Source: Acidobacteriota bacterium
Lineage (GTDB): Bacteria; Acidobacteriota; Terriglobia; UBA7540
Direction: 5' to 3'
DNA: 5,726 bases
Assembly: GCA_003165615.1 (NCBI GenBank)
Contig: PLWR01000479.1
Coordinates: 2,784 to 8,509 of the forward strand
Positions 303-5,726 of this stretch are shown here, one piece after another (position 1 is the first letter of the stretch; each line of letters starts with the position of its first letter). The position numbers and the translations under genes were made by a program. A model generated the notes under the pieces. That model made no database searches and was not told the origin of the DNA. It saw only the letters and a list, made by a program, of their open reading frames with translations.

Positions 303-2522
303 TTAGAATTTCACCATAACGCCCGCGCTGAGGGCGTCTTGGGTTTTGCGAAGATCCGGGAACCAGACGCTGCCGATCCCGCCGCCGCAAGCCGCCTCCG
401 CGTCGGGTAAATCGGGAGCCCCGGACGATGCGCCGCTGCTGCAAACGTAGTCTTGGGGGGACGCAGTATTTCCTGCCGGAGGAGTAATCCCGTGCCGGCC
501 TGTCCAATACGGGATGTTCGAGGCTCGATGCCCGGCTTCTACCCACCATGTGATGTATTCTTTGGGCATCCACTGGAAAGTGAGCGTGGTATCCCACATT
601 TTGGCCACTTGACCGGGATTCTCCGTGAAATAAGGAGAGCCGGAGACGGCATCGGCGCCATTGATCGGTGGCAGCAGAGTAAGATAGCGGCCGGGATTAT
701 TCATCTGACCGCCACCATACGTGAGGCCATACTTGTCGTGTCCCCACCAGATTCGGTTGTAAGCCATCCAACCCGCAAACGAATCCTTGGTGGCTCCGCC
801 CGTGCACCTGAAACCGGGCCCGTACTGACAGCCCAAATCTCCTGTCAGGGAGAAAGCCATCTTGTCGATTCCCGTGCTCTTGGGATGGTCAAAGTATTTA
901 ACTTCGATGCTATCATCGGTGTGGATACGCTGGACATAGGGCAACCCCAGGTTATCTTGTCCGTACCCATATTGATTCATCACGAGCTTGAACCAGTCCT
1001 TGGGCATCCACAGAAGCTGGCCTCCCAGACCCAGGTGACCGTTGTACCGGTTATACGACTGCCAACCGTTAATGATCCAGGGCTCGATCTTGAGCTTGTT
1101 CGTGGGGAACCACTGAATTCGCAGTCCATTGAAGAACCACGGCGTATTGGAAGACACAAAGGACGGTTGATAGGTCCAGTTATCGAAGTTGTAGTAGCTG
1201 AACAGGCCGATGTACGACACGAAGATTCCGGCATCGACGTTCAGCCCGTGGCTCACGTTGAAGTGATACCCACCCCAGGCCTCCGAAACATATTTATACG
1301 CCCCGCGGACATCCCATTGGCCGACTCCGGCGCTGGCGTCATTTCGCGGGGTCGTGGTCGCGAATAAACCGTCCATGGTCAGAATCCTGCCGCGCACGTT
1401 CTGCCAGTGGAAGTCACCGCCGACGCTGATCTGCTCCAACTGAAATTCGCCGGACCGGAACGACTCCGTCGCGCCGCCCATCGTATGGTCGATGGGTTGA
1501 TTAAAGTCCGCCATGAAGTTGGTATCGAATCTAATTTCCGGGGTGAAGAATTTGGTGTCCAGCACCGCATCTTTGTTGCGCGGGGTGCCGTTTAACCAGG
1601 TAAAGTCGCCGAACGCAAACGGAGTGAAATTATCCACGCCCGTGGTGGGATCGGGGGCTTCCAAAGCTTCCGGGAGGGTGTGCGTGGCGGCAGGCGCCGG
1701 CGTGGCCGCTGCCTGCTTGCTGGGCGAAATTGAAATTGCCGGCGGCTTTTCCGCGGACTTGATTCCAATTGCGCCCTCGAGCGAAGCCAGCAGGGTGTGC
1801 TTAGCAGGTGCGGCGGTCGAATTGGCGCCGGCGCTGGCAGAAGTCACGGGTGCGGGCTGCGTTGCCGCCACCGTTGTCGCGCTGGTCGTGGGCGGGGAAG
1901 CCACCGCCGCCGGCTGAGCTGCGATTGCGGTGGCAGCCGGGGCTGCCGCTTTGGCATCTTTGGCTTCCATGGCTGCCAGCCGCTGCTCCAGCCGGTCCAG
2001 GCGCTCCAGCAACATCTTCTCGCGATCGGTAAGGGGAGCAGGTTCCGTATTCGCGGCCACCGCAGGCGAGCGCAAATCAGCGGTGAGATTTGAATTCGCT
2101 GTCGCTTTCGACGCGCTGGCAGAAGCGAGGGTCACGTCTACCTGCAAATCCTGGTGGGGCTTGAGGTCGACAGTGGTTAGCGCGGAACTGGCCAGACCTT
2201 CCTTGGCTGCTCGCAATTCGTAGCGTCCCGGCCTGAGGTTCTCAACCAGGAAAGCTCCCTGGTCATTGCTCATGATATTCAGGTCGGTGTTATCTTCCAC
2301 GCTATGCACCAACACCTGCACTCCGGGAAGAGGCGCTCCCTGCACGCTGCGAGTAACCCCGCGGAGATCACCAAATTCCGGTCCGGCATTGGCGGAACTG
2401 AGAGTCAACAACACCCCACACAAAACCGCTAGCGCCCCCGCGAAAGCAGCTTTCCTGCGCATATTGAATGGGTGTAACCGAAATTGAAAGTGATTCATTT
2501 CACCCACCCTTTTCTGGGTCAT
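303..2522 (-). CDS. Porin-like outer-membrane beta-barrel with N-terminal carboxypeptidase-regulatory-like domain
   Basis: Predicted outer-membrane channel of 739 residues; substrate unknown. The start at 2522 is chosen because AGGAGG lies 9 nt upstream; a longer in-frame start at 2627 falls inside the promoter repeats. The n-region is long (about 23 residues, ending MRRK), followed by a hydrophobic stretch and a likely signal peptidase site after SANA (residue 46). Residues 47-133 look like a CarboxypepD_reg beta-sandwich (GVTRSVQGAPLPGVQV, then LRPGRYELRA). Residues about 164-189 form a Leu-rich coiled coil (LLERLDRLEQRLAAME). An Ala/Pro/Ser/Thr-rich linker runs to about 285. Residues about 295-739 alternate in beta-barrel fashion, rich in Trp, Tyr and Gly, and end in VMVKF, with the terminal Phe of BAM substrates. 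The barrel most resembles the BBP2/OmpL-like porin family, by eye only. Four cysteines of the mature chain (565, 573, 694, 712) lie as two pairs in Gly/Ser-rich, loop-like segments. It is downstream of and co-oriented with the LysR gene but has its own promoter. Confidence 0.88.
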   Translation of the reverse strand: MTQKRVGEMNHFQFRLHPFNMRRKAAFAGALAVLCGVLLTLSSANAGPEFGDLRGVTRSVQGAPLPGVQVLVHSVEDNTDLNIMSNDQGAFLVENLRPGRYELRAAKEGLASSALTTVDLKPHQDLQVDVTLASASASKATANSNLTADLRSPAVAANTEPAPLTDREKMLLERLDRLEQRLAAMEAKDAKAAAPAATAIAAQPAAVASPPTTSATTVAATQPAPVTSASAGANSTAAPAKHTLLASLEGAIGIKSAEKPPAISISPSKQAAATPAPAATHTLPEALEAPDPTTGVDNFTPFAFGDFTWLNGTPRNKDAVLDTKFFTPEIRFDTNFMADFNQPIDHTMGGATESFRSGEFQLEQISVGGDFHWQNVRGRILTMDGLFATTTPRNDASAGVGQWDVRGAYKYVSEAWGGYHFNVSHGLNVDAGIFVSYIGLFSYYNFDNWTYQPSFVSSNTPWFFNGLRIQWFPTNKLKIEPWIINGWQSYNRYNGHLGLGGQLLWMPKDWFKLVMNQYGYGQDNLGLPYVQRIHTDDSIEVKYFDHPKSTGIDKMAFSLTGDLGCQYGPGFRCTGGATKDSFAGWMAYNRIWWGHDKYGLTYGGGQMNNPGRYLTLLPPINGADAVSGSPYFTENPGQVAKMWDTTLTFQWMPKEYITWWVEAGHRASNIPYWTGRHGITPPAGNTASPQDYVCSSGASSGAPDLPDAEAACGGGIGSVWFPDLRKTQDALSAGVMVKF

Positions 2523-2531
2523 GGGAACGTA

Positions 2532-2537
2532 CCTCCT
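2532..2537 (-). promoter_or_regulatory. Shine-Dalgarno that sets the porin start
   Basis: The minus strand reads AGGAGG, 9 nt before the ATG at 2522. None of the alternative in-frame ATGs (2627, 2576, 2570, 2498, 2462) has a comparable site. This decides the start and leaves a leader of roughly 58 nt from the presumed -10 box. Confidence 0.8.
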
Positions 2538-2560
2538 GTCAGTTGAAACAATTTGGTTGC

Positions 2561-2574
2561 GGCGATCCATCGCC
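2561..2574 (-). other. Small hairpin near the 5' end of the porin mRNA
   Basis: The minus strand reads GGCGA-TGGA-TCGCC, a 5-bp GC-rich stem with a 4-nt loop (GGCGAT/ATCGCC is fully palindromic). It lies a few nucleotides after the transcription start predicted from the -10 box at 2587-2592. A 5'-terminal hairpin of this kind can protect an mRNA from decay; that role is inferred. It also buries the upstream in-frame ATG codons. Confidence 0.4.
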
Positions 2575-2586
2575 ATTTCCAAATTC

Positions 2587-2630
2587 AGAATAGAGCGCCC
2601 GGCATGAAGAAGGCATAAACACGTCATAAG
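2587..2630 (-). promoter_or_regulatory. Porin promoter: three 11-bp direct repeats plus -10 box
   Basis: Read toward the porin gene, the minus strand carries TTATG (2626-2630), TTATG (2615-2619) and TCATG (2603-2607 with its preceding T at position 2608), starting every 11 bp. TATTCT follows at 2587-2592, exactly 10 bp after the last repeat unit. There is no recognisable -35 hexamer; the repeats occupy that place, as in promoters activated by OmpR/PhoB-family regulators. The same design precedes the LysR and response-regulator genes. The segment TTATGCCTTCTTCAT differs from the response-regulator copy at one of 15 positions. Confidence 0.68.
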
Positions 2631-2679
2631 GATTTTAGGAAGAACCCATTGATTCCATTTATGCGTATCATGGCGCGCA

Positions 2680-3624
2680 TCATCTTGCCGCGGCGGCGGG
2701 GGCCATCGGTCGAGTGCATACGGAGTTCTTTACAACATCCAGGAACGCCTTGGCGGGCAGCGTCATGGGGCTACTGCGCCGGTACACCAATCCCAATTCA
2801 CGGGAGAGCTTCGGCCCCTGCACTGAAACCAGTCTCAGCGTTCCAGCGGCCACCTCCGCCTGCGCAAACGCTTCCGGGAGCAGAGAGATGCCAATCCCGG
2901 CAGAGACGTATTTCTTGATGATTTCCACGCTCGCCAGCTCCATCGAAATCTGCAGAGCCTTTTTGTATGGGCGCAGAAGGTCTTCGATCATCTTGCGGGT
3001 TCTTCCGGTCTTCGGCAGGAGGAGCGGGTAGAAGGAAATCTCCTCGGGCGTGATCTCCTTCCTTTCCGCCAGGGGATGGTCAGGCGGCAGCAAGACCTTG
3101 AGTTCCGCCGCAAAGATCGGGATGACCTCAAGGCCCTTGACCGTGCGGGGCAGGGAAACAATACCGACCTCTACACTTCCTTCCTGAATCTTTTCCACGA
3201 TCTTGTGGCTGAAATTTCTGTAGATATTCACTTGCACCTGCGGATAGAGCCGCCGGAAACCCGCCAGGGCATTGGGCAGGACGTAGAGGCAGGTGGCGTC
3301 ATTGGTGCCGATGCGCAGACTGCCGCGGGGGTTCTCCTTGATCTGGCCGATGGCATCCAGGGCCTCGGTGCGCAGGGCCAGCATCTCCTCCGCATAGCGC
3401 CGTAGCGTGCTGCCGGCCTGGGTCAGCCTGACCGCTTTGAAATCGCGGTCGAAGAGTTTTCCCCCGAATTCCCTTTCCAGCCTCTGAATCTGCTGACTCA
3501 GCGTGGGCTGCGTGCGAAAGAGAATGGAAGCGGCTCGGGAAAAGTTTCTTACTTTGGCAACCTCAAGAAAACCCTCGAGGTAATCAAAATTCATGCGATG
3601 CCGGACCCGGGTTTGTTTCAGCAT
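2680..3624 (-). CDS. LysR-type transcriptional regulator
   Basis: A cytoplasmic DNA-binding regulator of 314 residues, the usual LysR length. Residues 13-72 form the N-terminal winged helix-turn-helix, with the LysR signature around 28-58 (FSRAASILFRTQPTLSQQIQ, then LEREFGGKLFDR). A linker helix spans about 73-97. Residues 102-300 form the periplasmic-binding-protein-like effector domain, starting LRIGTNDATCLYVLP and containing the typical VSAGIGISLLPE segment at 240-251. The tail is Ala-rich and ends in Arg. The start at 3624 is supported by AGGGAG 8 nt upstream (3633-3638). The alternative MNFDYLEGF start at 3594 fits the family's usual length equally well but lacks a ribosome binding site. 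Its target and effector cannot be named. It is upstream of and co-oriented with the porin gene, which makes the porin a plausible but unproven target. Confidence 0.93.
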   Translation of the reverse strand: MLKQTRVRHRMNFDYLEGFLEVAKVRNFSRAASILFRTQPTLSQQIQRLEREFGGKLFDRDFKAVRLTQAGSTLRRYAEEMLALRTEALDAIGQIKENPRGSLRIGTNDATCLYVLPNALAGFRRLYPQVQVNIYRNFSHKIVEKIQEGSVEVGIVSLPRTVKGLEVIPIFAAELKVLLPPDHPLAERKEITPEEISFYPLLLPKTGRTRKMIEDLLRPYKKALQISMELASVEIIKKYVSAGIGISLLPEAFAQAEVAAGTLRLVSVQGPKLSRELGLVYRRSSPMTLPAKAFLDVVKNSVCTRPMAPAAAAR

Positions 3625-3687
3625 GTTTGTGGCTCCCTTTCGATCCTTCCTGTTTTTAAGCCCTCGCTCAGGGCCGCCATTTAGGAG

Positions 3688-3801
3688 GCTGATGAAAACT
3701 CCCTTCGGCGCGACGTAGCGGCGGGTTTACCCCGCCATGGGTCGATTGCTTTAGACGCCCCATGGCGGCATAAAACCGCCGCTACATCGTTTTTCATCAG
3801 C
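3688..3801. repeat. Long imperfect palindrome (REP/MITE-like) in the LysR leader
   Basis: The outer arms GCTGATGAAAA (3688-3698) and TTTTCATCAGC (3791-3801) are perfect 11-bp complements. The inner arms 3711-3744 and 3756-3789 are complementary at about 29 of 34 positions around an 11-nt loop. The inner arms carry GTAGCGGCGG and GCCATGGG, the latter shared with the palindrome at 126-145. The element sits between the LysR start codon and the presumed LysR promoter, so it would be transcribed as a long hairpin leader. No transposase is encoded. Dispersal in the genome is inferred from its form. Confidence 0.7.
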
Positions 3802-3846
3802 CCTCTGGACATTCTATAAGGAGGACTAAGACCCATCCCTGTGGTT

Positions 3847-3889
3847 AGGTTATGCGGTCTTTCATGAACAAGTCATAAAGAGGGGATAA
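3847..3889 (-). promoter_or_regulatory. LysR promoter: three 11-bp direct repeats plus -10 box
   Basis: On the minus strand, TTATC (3885-3889), TTATG (3874-3878) and TCATG (3863-3867) start every 11 bp. After exactly 10 bp comes TAACCT (3847-3852), a weak -10 candidate. The architecture matches the porin and response-regulator promoters in order, period, orientation and spacing. The implied leader to the LysR start at 3624 is about 215 nt and includes the long palindrome. The first unit (TTATC) and the -10 hexamer are the weakest of the three promoters, so this is the least certain member of the set. Confidence 0.55.
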
Positions 3890-3974
3890 GGAAGTTGGGA
3901 GTAAGAATCGGTAATTTTTTCAGGAGCCATAGATTATTTTGATGGGAATTAAGGTTTTTGCGAGCCTCGCCAAG

Positions 3975-4194
3975 CGGGGATAGCATCTCTCCCGAGGCCG
4001 GGATAACCCCTGGCGCAAAGCCTCACGGAGCCCATTGCCTGCCCCCCGAGGGTGGTTTCAACCAATGGATATGCGGTGCCGGTGCGGGCGATATCTCAAG
4101 TGCGGCGAAAACCAGGCCACCGCGCGCTATCCCCGATCGGCATAGTTCAAGAGTGAAGTGTACCGGCGTCAAGGCAAGAAATGACCGGTATGCC
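3975..4194 (+). ncRNA. Candidate structured RNA of unknown family
   Basis: A long-range 10-bp perfect helix (CGGGGATAGC 3975-3984 with GCTATCCCCG 4126-4135) closes about 140 nt that fold further. TCCCG/CGGGA (3990-3994/3999-4003) has a 4-nt loop. CCTGG/CCAGG pairs 4009-4013 with 4112-4116. CCATTG/CAATGG pairs 4032-4037 with 4063-4068. ATAT/ATAT with TGCC/GGCG makes a hairpin over 4069-4094. Directly after P1, GGCAT/ATGCC (4139-4143/4190-4194) and TACCGG/CCGGTA (4161-4166/4185-4190) form a second domain. These are pairings found by eye, not by folding software. The piece CGCAAAGCCTC (4014-4024) recalls the cyclic-di-GMP-I aptamer, but the partner GGGCAAACC segment and hairpin are absent. The strand is uncertain because helices are symmetric. 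No protein-like frame competes convincingly. It could be a standalone RNA or part of a long leader for the gene at 4661. Confidence 0.4.
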
Positions 4195-4328
4195 ACGCTC
4201 CTGTATCCGCTATAAAAATATCGAATTGCCCAGGCACGTGCGTCTCAAGGTATACTTTTAATTGACGGCAGGCGAAAAAGCGAACCCTGGCAAGTTCGCG
4301 CTGTGGAGGCTGCGCAGAAACCCGGCAA
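4195..4328. other. Intergenic stretch with weak promoter-like and palindromic sequences
   Basis: No gene is visible. TATACT at 4251-4256 is a good -10 match on the plus strand, but the nearest -35-like TTGCCC is 19 bp upstream, so a promoter is only possible. GCGAAC (4280-4285) and GTTCGC (4294-4299) form a 6-bp inverted repeat with an 8-nt loop. Confidence 0.3.
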
Positions 4329-4438
4329 ACTGTCATCCTTAGCGAAGCGAAGAATCCCGGTAGTTGAATTATCAAACGAATACGGAGGTCCTTCCTTCGC
4401 GATACTCAGGACCGGCTTCGCCTCCTCAGGATGACAGT
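4329..4438. mobile_element. MITE-like element with terminal inverted repeats
   Basis: ACTGTCATCC at 4329-4338 and GGATGACAGT at 4429-4438 are perfect 10-bp terminal inverted repeats. Similarity continues inward, with a GCGAAG block near each end. The left end resembles the 'TGTCATCCTGAGCGAAGCGAAG' sequence that I recall as widely dispersed in acidobacterial and other environmental genomes. At 110 bp it has no coding capacity and would have to be mobilised in trans, if it is mobile at all. No clear target-site duplication is seen. Confidence 0.6.
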
Positions 4439-4440
4439 AT

Positions 4441-4457
4441 TGGGGAGTTTTTCCCCA
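4441..4457. terminator. Perfect 6-bp hairpin, possible terminator
   Basis: TGGGGA (4441-4446) and TCCCCA (4452-4457) pair around the 5-nt loop GTTTT. No T-tract follows on either strand, so termination is uncertain. It lies just outside the MITE-like element and could end either a transcript from the structured-RNA region or a minus-strand transcript. Confidence 0.3.
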
Positions 4458-4572
4458 GGGTGTTTAGGCCGCCGCGCTCAGGGCCCAATGGCAAAAATCA
4501 TTCACGGTTTGTATTTTGAACCCCATCCGTGAAAACGCTTCGGTCTCGCGGCACATCTGCGCCGGGAGCGGA

Positions 4573-4624
4573 GTCTCCGGCTTTTCCACAAAGCTTGTAG
4601 GAGGACTGCCAACCTGCCGGAGAC
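4573..4624 (+). promoter_or_regulatory. Inverted repeat in the leader of the small membrane-protein gene
   Basis: GTCTCCGGC (4573-4581) and GCCGGAGAC (4616-4624) are perfect 9-bp complements with a 34-nt loop. The repeat ends 20 nt before the ribosome binding site of the gene at 4661. A second inverted repeat, TTCACGG/CCGTGAA (4501-4507/4527-4533), lies further upstream. Either could be an operator or a leader hairpin. No known riboswitch is recognised. Confidence 0.35.
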
Positions 4625-4644
4625 CTGGCGCGATCATTTCCTGA

Positions 4645-4650
4645 AGGAGG
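4645..4650 (+). promoter_or_regulatory. Shine-Dalgarno supporting a TTG start
   Basis: AGGAGG ends 10 nt before TTG at 4661. The next in-frame ATG at 4679 would be 28 nt from it and would remove part of the first membrane helix's lead-in, so TTG is preferred. Confidence 0.7.
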
Positions 4651-4660
4651 AAGATTACCT

Positions 4661-4993
4661 TTGCGTTACAGTTTCGCGATGGGGATTTTGTTGTGCGCTG
4701 CATTTGTGGAAGCGGCCGGTGATGCTTTGATGCGCGTTGGGCTGCGCAGCCCAACCCACACTCGTGCGGCCCTGTTTTTTGTCCTCGGCGGCCTGGTCCT
4801 CGGCTTGTACGGATACTTGGTTAATGCGCCACCGTGGGACTTCGGGCGGCTCATCGGCGTGTACGTGGCCTTTTTCTTTGTCGTGGCCCAGTTGATTTCC
4901 TGGTTGGGGTTCGGCCAAAAGCCCACTCCCATGATCCTGTTGGGCGGAGCCCTCATTGTGATGGGCGGGTGCGTTGTGTCTTTGGCGAAATGA
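4661..4993 (+). CDS. Small four-helix membrane protein, SMR superfamily, YnfA/UPF0060-like
   Basis: An inner-membrane protein of 110 residues, the usual size of SMR and YnfA proteins. Four hydrophobic segments are visible at about 5-24, 36-54, 63-83 and 89-108. The first holds FVEAAGDALMR with Glu17, at the place of the conserved membrane-embedded Glu of EmrE (AEVIGTTLMK). The third contains GRLIGVYVAFF, close to YnfA's GGVYVA, and continues ISWLGFGQ, like EmrE's LLSWGFFGQ. The family exports small cations, toxic organics or guanidinium-type compounds as dimers; the substrate here is unknown. Asp21 in helix 1 is an unusual second acidic residue. It starts with TTG, backed by a strong ribosome binding site, and ends in TGA at 4991-4993. 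It appears monocistronic: 236 bp separate it from the response regulator, which has its own promoter. A minus-strand frame overlapping its 5' end is rejected. Confidence 0.8.
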   Translation: MRYSFAMGILLCAAFVEAAGDALMRVGLRSPTHTRAALFFVLGGLVLGLYGYLVNAPPWDFGRLIGVYVAFFFVVAQLISWLGFGQKPTPMILLGGALIVMGGCVVSLAK

Positions 4994-5058
4994 GAAAGGA
5001 ATCTCTTCACACCCTGCGCGCGAGTTAAGATTGCCCATAAGCAATTCTTCCCCATTCC

Positions 5059-5112
5059 TCATGAATTCCTTATGAAGAACTTATGCTTTCTTCATCGTCG
5101 GCATCGTACTGT
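5059..5112 (+). promoter_or_regulatory. Response-regulator promoter: four 11-bp direct repeats plus -10 box
   Basis: TCATG (5059-5063), TTATG (5070-5074), TTATG (5081-5085) and TCATC (5092-5096) start exactly every 11 bp. After 10 bp comes TACTGT (5107-5112), a plausible -10 box. A perfect 8-bp inverted repeat, ATGAAGAA/TTCTTCAT (5072-5079/5088-5095), is superimposed. The 11-bp period is that of head-to-tail OmpR/PhoB-family dimers, and the gene behind it encodes such a regulator, so autoregulation is the natural inference. A further half-similar block, CATAAG..TTCTTC, lies upstream at 5036-5050. Confidence 0.7.
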
Positions 5113-5148
5113 AGATCTGCAATGATTGGACAAACGTACCCTTCCAAC

Positions 5149-5174
5149 CACCCATCGACGGTTTCGATCGGGTG
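5149..5174 (+). other. Stem-loop in the response-regulator leader
   Basis: CACCCATCGA (5149-5158) pairs with TCGAT (5164-5168) and GGGTG (5170-5174), leaving one bulged C at 5169 and a 5-nt loop. It lies about 40 nt upstream of the ribosome binding site, within the leader predicted from the -10 box at 5107-5112. No T-tract follows, so it is more likely an mRNA leader structure than a terminator. Its function is unknown. Confidence 0.4.
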
Positions 5175-5229
5175 CACGCCTCAACCCGCCAGAACTTGCA
5201 GTTACTTGCTGAAAGGAAGGAATGCTCAC

Positions 5230-5726
5230 GTGGATTTCCGAATTCTGGTGGTGGACGATGACGTGCAGATCCGCCGTGTTTTGCGCGCCTCGCTTACGGC
5301 GGCCCGGTATGAGGTGGACACCGCCGCCAGTAGCGAAGAATCCCTGGAGATGATGGAGGACAAACAATACCACCTGGTCCTTCTGGACTTGAGCATGCCG
5401 GGGGTGGATGGGTTTGAATTGTGCCGCAGGCTGCGCTCCACATCCGAAGCTGAAATCATTATTATCAGTGTGAGGTCTATTGAACAAGATATTATTGCGG
5501 GGCTCGATGCGGGGGCCGACGATTACATTACCAAACCCTTCCGCACCCCGGAATTGCTGGCCAGGATTCGCTCCGCCCTCCGCCGGAATGTTGCCTCAAT
5601 GGAATCGGGCCCCCATAAGATCACCCTGGAAGGCATCGAAATTGACTTCCGCGAACGGCACGTAACCGTCGACGGGAAAGGCGTGCGGCTTACCCCCAAG
5701 GAATTTGAAGTCCTGCATTATCTTGC
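5230..5726 (+). CDS. OmpR/PhoB-family response regulator, KdpE-like, cut by the window end
   Basis: A two-component DNA-binding regulator; the first 165 codons are present. The GTG start is backed by AAGGAAGG 9 nt upstream (5213-5220). Residues 4-118 form a complete receiver domain. Visible key residues are the acidic pocket Asp9/Asp10/Asp11, phosphoacceptor Asp53 (LVLLDLSMPG), Ser80, and Lys102 in AGADDYITKPF. A winged-helix Trans_reg_C domain begins near residue 128 (ITLEGIEIDFRERHVTVDG, then VRLTPKEFEVLHYL) and is truncated before the recognition helix. IRRVLRASL, LDAGADDY and ELLARIRSALRR resemble KdpE more than other OmpR members, but with the effector domain and kinase missing this does not prove a role in potassium control. 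PhoB-like paralogues remain possible. Its promoter carries the 11-bp repeats shared with the porin and LysR genes, suggesting it is autoregulated and may control both. Confidence 0.92.
   Translation, partial: MDFRILVVDDDVQIRRVLRASLTAARYEVDTAASSEESLEMMEDKQYHLVLLDLSMPGVDGFELCRRLRSTSEAEIIIISVRSIEQDIIAGLDAGADDYITKPFRTPELLARIRSALRRNVASMESGPHKITLEGIEIDFRERHVTVDGKGVRLTPKEFEVLHYL

Follow-up and report, generated by a model that had tools for sequence, protein, structure and literature searches.

Genes and tandem-repeat operators of the locus

The DNA analyzed here (the window) is a 5,726-nucleotide stretch of contig PLWR01000479.1 from a soil bacterium of the Acidobacteriota, class Terriglobia, and our subject is a set of three tandem-repeat operators found in it, together with the response regulator that probably acts on them. 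Its four genes, as assigned by Pfam, encode (i) an outer-membrane porin with CarboxypepD_reg and BBP2 (PF07642) domains (303..2522, minus strand); (ii) a LysR-family regulator (2680..3624, minus strand); (iii) a YnfA/UPF0060-like small membrane protein, located between the LysR and response regulator genes (4661..4993, plus strand); and (iv) an OmpR-family response regulator, characterized below as a KdpE paralogue, which has a GTG start and of which the first 165 residues lie in the window (5230..5726, plus strand). The BBP2 domain of the porin scored 104.8 bits against a gathering threshold of 26.2, and the porin gene probably starts at ATG 2522, which is placed behind a GGAGG; a longer open reading frame (ORF) extending to 2627 would begin within the porin operator.

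The porin, LysR, and response regulator genes are each preceded by 6-bp direct half-sites with 5-bp spacers, i.e., with an 11-bp period. The porin operator and its -10 hexamer (2587..2630, minus strand) consist of CTTATG (2630-2625), TTTATG (2619-2614), and TTCATG (2608-2603), followed after N10 by TATTCT (2592-2587). The LysR operator and -10 (3847..3890, minus strand) read CTTATC (3890-3885), TTTATG (3879-3874), TTCATG (3868-3863), N10, and TAACCT (3852-3847), and those of the response regulator (5058..5112, plus strand) read CTTATG (5069-5074), CTTATG (5080-5085), TTCATC (5091-5096), N10, and TACTGT (5107-5112), with an extra (fourth) upstream repeat, CTCATG (5058-5063), that was missing from the original prediction made for this DNA. 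That prediction held that the three sites share their order, 11-bp period, orientation, and 10-bp gap to the -10, and our search agrees: with one mismatch permitted, TTATS-N6-TTATG-N6-TCATS matched three times on the two strands of the window, in every case exactly, and 200 dinucleotide-preserving shuffles of the window yielded no match. The YnfA-like gene, the fourth of the window, has no operator match.

The hexamers found 17 bp from the -10 (TGCCTT, TGACTT, and TGCTTT) include no good -35, and a sigma-70 consensus scan of positions 2500-5250 returned no site, as expected from the earlier claim that these promoters lack a good -35. The same claim placed a putative operator of the OmpR/PhoB-family type over the -35 position at a fixed distance from the -10, which is consistent with the N10 at the window sites. 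With their weak -35 hexamers, the window promoters thus have a predicted architecture that fits class II activation.

About 220 nt of leader separate the LysR operator from the start of the gene. This leader is lengthened by a palindromic element (3686-3802) resembling a miniature inverted-repeat transposable element (MITE) or a repetitive extragenic palindromic (REP) sequence, with arms (3711-3744 and 3756-3789) that are 85% complementary and with GGCTGATGAAAA ends. A second repeat-like stretch with GTCATCC...GGATGAC ends was seen by eye in the LysR-YnfA intergenic region (4330-4440). An Rfam scan of the window gave one match, unrelated to the operators: an Acido-Lenti-1 RNA (RF01687) at 126-172, 3' of the porin gene (37.7 bits; gathering score, 37).

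Conservation and distribution of the operators

A search with the LysR protein identified seven loci, six of which are in Acidobacteriota/Terriglobia metagenome-assembled genomes (G001 to G006) at 75 to 87% identity. LysR relatives of at least 75% identity occur in these genomes only, the others in the order showing 52 to 57%. The order of LysR and then porin is kept in five of the six relatives (G001 to G005), with one intervening gene in G004 and G005; on its opposite side, LysR is flanked by the regulator gene in five (G001 and G003 to G006), and the YnfA-like gene is also present in G003, G004, and G006. The G006 porin and its operator are on a separate contig, and a seventh genome, G010, carries the regulator and its operator on a short contig.

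The porin operator was found in all seven promoters examined (the window and G001 to G005 by position and G006 by pattern), as was the regulator operator (the window, G001, and G003 to G006 by position and G010 by pattern), and the 12 porin and regulator operators read by position all end in TTCAY. A matrix built from the 14 porin and regulator sites detected the LysR operator in three of six promoters (the window, G001, and G006), G002 being left out of this count because its contig starts at LysR. The porin and the regulator are therefore supported as members of the predicted regulon, whereas LysR is only an occasional one. The -10 consensus TANNNT that had been proposed holds at the three window sites but is not invariable in the relatives, where it widens to YANNNT.

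Genome-wide operator scans were made in the relatives' genomes. Among the 40 genomes of the order, 7 had matches to a relaxed core pattern (15 in total), and the backward pattern had none; with the full motif, including YANNNT, the 399 genomes of the class yielded 14 matches, located in 7 of them, and 1 backward match (in G248). The N10 spacing of all 14 full matches was built into the search pattern. By their coordinates, the matches all sit upstream of the porin, regulator, or LysR gene, except for one in G001 that is upstream of a gene preceding a resistance-nodulation-division (RND) efflux operon, and the relaxed core had no match elsewhere in the 40 genomes of the order. Because the operator matches are confined to those promoters, the regulon looks compact, as had been anticipated.

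The operator is, by sequence, of the KdpE type

The original prediction considered the regulon apparently undescribed; this is not supported for the operator, whose type is a known one, since the same box precedes kdpA in the same order and the half-site layout is that of Escherichia coli KdpE. The 37 kdpA matches in the order yielded 30 kdp loci that were read for boxes, and in 25 of these a tandem YTTAYR-N5-YTYAYR box is located no more than 1500 bp upstream of kdpA. The reversed, complemented, and reversed and complemented expressions gave no match in the same 30 stretches, and the box itself gave none in the kdpA stretches. Of the five misses (L052, L070, L072, L073, and L076), L052 and L072 match a looser expression, and in L073 and L076 kdpA is a fragment abutting the end of its contig, with no upstream DNA. 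TANNNT occurs exactly 10 bp after the last repeat in 15 of the 25 boxes, no other offset being seen more than two times, and YANNNT is found at this distance in 24 of the 25, as read from the individual boxes, the spacing not having been required by the search. CTTATG half-sites are also included among these boxes. The kdp boxes differ from the operators of the locus in the last half-site, which is of the YTTAYG type in the former and TTCAY in the latter. In the seven genomes that carry the locus operators (the locus genomes), a TTGA-type half-site is followed by two good ones in the kdp box, which ends in YTTATG, with CANNNT or GACAAT at N10.

E. coli KdpE recognizes the half-sites TTTATA and TTTACA, which are separated by a 5-bp spacer and whose first two bases are T, invariant across the genera aligned in PMC3264566. 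The window operators share the 6-bp direct half-sites of this type, the 5-bp spacer, and the orientation relative to the gene, and the region upstream of E. coli kdpF contains TTTATACTTTTTTTACAC. They have three or four half-sites as opposed to two at E. coli kdpFABC, and 5 of the 10 half-sites in the window start with C and then T, not TT. Given the boxes upstream of kdpA, their N10 spacing, and the E. coli layout, the operator and -10 geometry of the window are those of the kdp promoters of this group, and the window sites are, by sequence, KdpE-type operators.

When the seven locus genomes were scanned with a two-repeat pattern, eight matches and no backward match were obtained. Six of these are kdp promoters, and the other two, one each in G001 and G002, are 41 bp before a Ser/Thr kinase gene (L138:721-753 and L139:7707-7739 (-), with YANNNT at N10). 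The kinase domain was assigned by Pfam in G001 (L138), and the L139 protein begins alike; this Ser/Thr protein kinase gene is a possible further Kdp target.

The response regulator is a KdpE paralogue

The window regulator is cut off after 165 residues, and its DNA-binding end was therefore examined through relatives; the search for regulator relatives and the structure match, tree, and contact-residue analyses used the full-length protein of G001, which is 89% identical to the window regulator over those residues. The best solved structure was E. coli KdpE 4KNY (162.9 bits), with 6LGQ 0.3 bits behind (162.6 bits). Regulator relatives of at least 75% identity occur in six of the seven operator-bearing genomes; the seventh, G002, whose contig is cut at LysR, has a relative at best 54% identical, and the other 33 genomes of the order reach at most 60%. 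The best of the more distant relatives are KdpE proteins encoded next to kdpA. In a phylogenetic tree that left out six duplicate rows, the truncated window regulator, and matches of fewer than 150 residues (L055 and L077), the locus regulators form one clade (100/100 support), and none of 200 bootstrap trees groups the kdpA-linked KdpE rows without this clade; the exact sister in the order stays ambiguous (open forks and long E. coli branches). The regulator gene is not with kdpD and kdpFABC, and another KdpE adjoins kdpA in the locus genomes, for which reason we call the protein a paralogue and not KdpE. Its distribution, structure match, and phylogenetic grouping mark it as a clade-specific KdpE paralogue. 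The presence of an OmpR/PhoB-family gene in the window had been recognized correctly, but neither its KdpE paralogy nor the tie between porin and kdp genes described below was part of that prediction.

Residues R193, R200, and T215, whose importance in E. coli KdpE is stated in PMC3264566, are conserved in all six full-length paralogues aligned. Within the contact stretch (191-202, E. coli numbering), two positions set the paralogues apart from the aligned kdpA-linked KdpE proteins, namely, 194 (A instead of V) and 197 (K instead of N), and further differences are found at 188-189, just before this stretch. Together with the half-site differences, these substitutions would fit, without proving, a diverged DNA specificity. 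Compared with the potassium-starvation system KdpD/KdpE, the regulator here is not linked to kdpFABC and its putative targets are the porin, itself, and sometimes LysR. The direct targets of E. coli KdpE are kdpABC, adeP, uxaA, and uxaC (PMC7657598); that regulon resembles the one proposed here in being very small and in including the regulator's own genes and differs from it in that no porin target is named in the available text of that study.

G031 (L137) and G030 (L140) each possess a further, divergent kdpABC system that has a kinase and a regulator of its own (the latter 47 to 48% identical to the locus regulator), and that of G031 also carries a BBP2 porin.

Association of BBP2 porins with kdp genes

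Outside G001 to G006, the window porin matched proteins in four genomes of the order (E <= 1e-60), namely, G009 (62% identity) and G015, G016, and G008 (51 to 59%). The G015 and G016 porins come after kdpA-B-C, and the G008 porin adjoins a kdpD-like gene; more distant BBP2 porins are found in the kdp clusters of G012 and G031. Across the order, 45 BBP2 matches were compared with 36 kdpA places (one sub-cutoff match dropped), and 9 of the 45 are no farther than 10 kb from one; in a class sample of 151 genomes, 126 of which have this porin family, 28 of the 150 listed BBP2 matches are equally close, in 25 genomes; the expected values are 0.24 and 0.64, respectively, which, because they assume uniform placement and independent genomes (related genomes were counted separately), are not literal probabilities. 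Among the same 150 listed matches, 15 are within 2 kb of kdpA. In the 14 genomes with a porin-kdpA distance of <2 kb, the porin precedes kdpA in every case, a cutoff that favors porins upstream of kdpA since kdpB and kdpC come after it; the porins located after kdpC (G012, G015, and G016) are outside this set. With an expression looser than that used for the kdp loci, a KdpE-type box was found upstream of 8 of these 14 pairs, versus 1 control match over three orientations. The second porins of G015 and G016 have upstream boxes, but with no YANNNT at N10 after the last repeat.

Proposed regulation and alternative explanations

These observations suggest the following mechanism. Tandem YTTATG/TTCAY half-sites recur every 11 bp, and the last ends 10 bp before the -10, so that the array would cover the -35 position. 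The response regulator encoded at 5230 would bind these operators, most likely head to tail as a phosphorylated protein, and would activate sigma-70 promoters in class II fashion, i.e., its own gene (positive autoregulation), the BBP2 porin gene, and the LysR gene in certain lineages. Given that kdp genes are repeated neighbors of this porin family and are themselves preceded by this type of operator, the input is likely to be a KdpD-type potassium/osmotic signal, and the likely output is an outer-membrane permeability matched to high-affinity K+ uptake, with K+ presumably passing through the porin. We put the probability at about three in four that a KdpE paralogue controls itself and a BBP2 porin through KdpE-type class II promoters, with a potassium/osmotic signal probable and LysR optional.

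Several observations weigh against this reading. The window regulator ends at residue 165, before the DNA-contact helix, and the genomes of the relatives are drafts whose completeness is not stated. Loss of the repeats at orthologous promoters, which the original prediction took as evidence against a shared operator, is seen for LysR: the matrix that found the other sites found no LysR operator in G003 to G005, with the repeats of the porin and the regulator kept throughout. The full-length regulator of a relative scores 185 bits with the KdpE model NF007820 (cutoff, 325) and is below every NCBIfam cutoff, with MtrA (194.9 bits) and RpaB (187.7 bits) slightly above KdpE; however, the kdpA-linked KdpE of G001 also stays below the KdpE cutoff (189 bits), again with other models slightly higher, so this cutoff is not discriminating here. 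In E. coli, the KdpE footprint extends from -72 to -50 (PMC3264566), in contrast to a last half-site only 10 bp before the -10 in the window. Six of the 14 porin-kdpA pairs at <2 kb are without a box, and no box is present in the 400 bp upstream of the G009 porin, the closest one beyond the locus genomes. Three further points, concerning a neighboring kinase, RND efflux genes, and the KdpE encoded beside kdpA, bear on the alternatives that follow.

One of the two main alternatives, which we regard as unlikely, is that the regulator serves another signal, such as metal or toxic-compound efflux, with the KdpE-type DNA recognition being mere ancestry. The fourth operator of G001 precedes a gene of unknown family that is followed by genes for CusB-like membrane-fusion and AcrB/RND proteins, and an arrangement of porin and then RND efflux operon, which hints at another function, is present in G001 (L036:14259 to L037:2263), G002 (L044), and G009 (L135). 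This cluster comprises the porin, a membrane-fusion protein, an RND pump, an outer-membrane factor, and a KDPG-aldolase-like protein, with domains assigned by Pfam in G001 and the likeness of G002 and G009 judged from ORF beginnings. However, within their contigs, G003 and G005 have no RND-size ORF adjoining the porin, yet the operators are kept there, and the porin family is tied to kdpA. The kinase encoded convergently to the regulator in G001 also argues for a Kdp-like signal in that its domains (DUF4118, HisKA, and HATPase) are those of the kdp-linked kinase of G001. No close relative of this kinase was found in the remaining six locus genomes, and its gene lacks a box in the 400 bp upstream. 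The kinase matches of those six genomes (E <= 1e-50) are the kdp-linked kinases, at 32 to 33% identity, plus a second of 34% in G003; as these are kdp-linked ones, the paralogue may be served by KdpD itself, and gaps in the draft genomes could also explain the pattern.

The other main alternative, which we regard as slightly less likely still, is that the sites belong to the housekeeping regulon of the KdpE encoded beside kdpA, which could bind them in place of the paralogue, the local regulator being a secondary or competing binder. The same genomes do carry a kdpA-linked KdpE whose DNA-contact stretch is closely similar (YLRVFINQLRKK versus YLRAFIKQLRKK), and their kdp boxes have the same layout as the window operators. 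However, the sites are limited to seven genomes of the order, six of them with the paralogue (the G002 contig is cut), whereas the kdpA-linked KdpE is far more widespread, and the TTCAY ending shared by all 12 porin and regulator sites sets them apart from the YTTATG-ended kdp boxes of the locus genomes.

The LysR protein was also weighed as a binder, on general grounds, and rejected. LysR binding sites are usually dyads, and the porin and regulator promoters of G003 to G005 keep their sites though the LysR promoter there is without one.

PhoB boxes, like these operators, are 11-bp direct repeats bound by an OmpR/PhoB-family protein in class II activation beside the -10, and PhoB models are the best match for the receiver part of the window regulator. 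A Pho-box-like operator under a PhoB-type regulator responding to phosphate limitation is nevertheless very improbable, in that the half-site sequence differs, the full-length relative scores 166 bits against a cutoff of 296 (TIGR02154), its nearest solved relative is KdpE, and the same type of box precedes kdpA in 25 of the 30 kdp loci. Chance or selfish intergenic repeats are a negligible explanation, even in a region with other repeats such as the palindromic element, given the absence of matches from the shuffles and of relaxed-core matches elsewhere in the 40 genomes of the order, and the constant location, orientation, and distance to the -10 at orthologous promoters.

Implications for Kdp regulation in the Acidobacteriota

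The operator type and the regulator family are already known. Our search of the open-access literature, most subscription journals being outside it, found no porin in a Kdp regulon, no split of the regulon under a paralogue, and no KdpE boxes of Acidobacteriota. More tentatively than for the regulation of the locus itself, and at somewhat less than even odds, we suggest that Kdp uptake in the Acidobacteriota has an outer-membrane half, with a BBP2 porin as a regular part of the Kdp regulon, and that one clade split this half off under its own KdpE paralogue with a diverged TTCAY half-site. Two potassium regulons would in this way have arisen from a single ancestral one, set apart by one base and by a small number of residues in the contact region (194 and 197, for example).

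The findings replace a seemingly unknown operator with a named type. They provide a testable function for a porin family that is common in these Acidobacteriota, i.e., an outer-membrane passage coupled to Kdp potassium uptake, and they point to a pair of paralogous regulators and operators that occur together naturally within one cell and in which the divergence of DNA specificity among response regulators may be studied.

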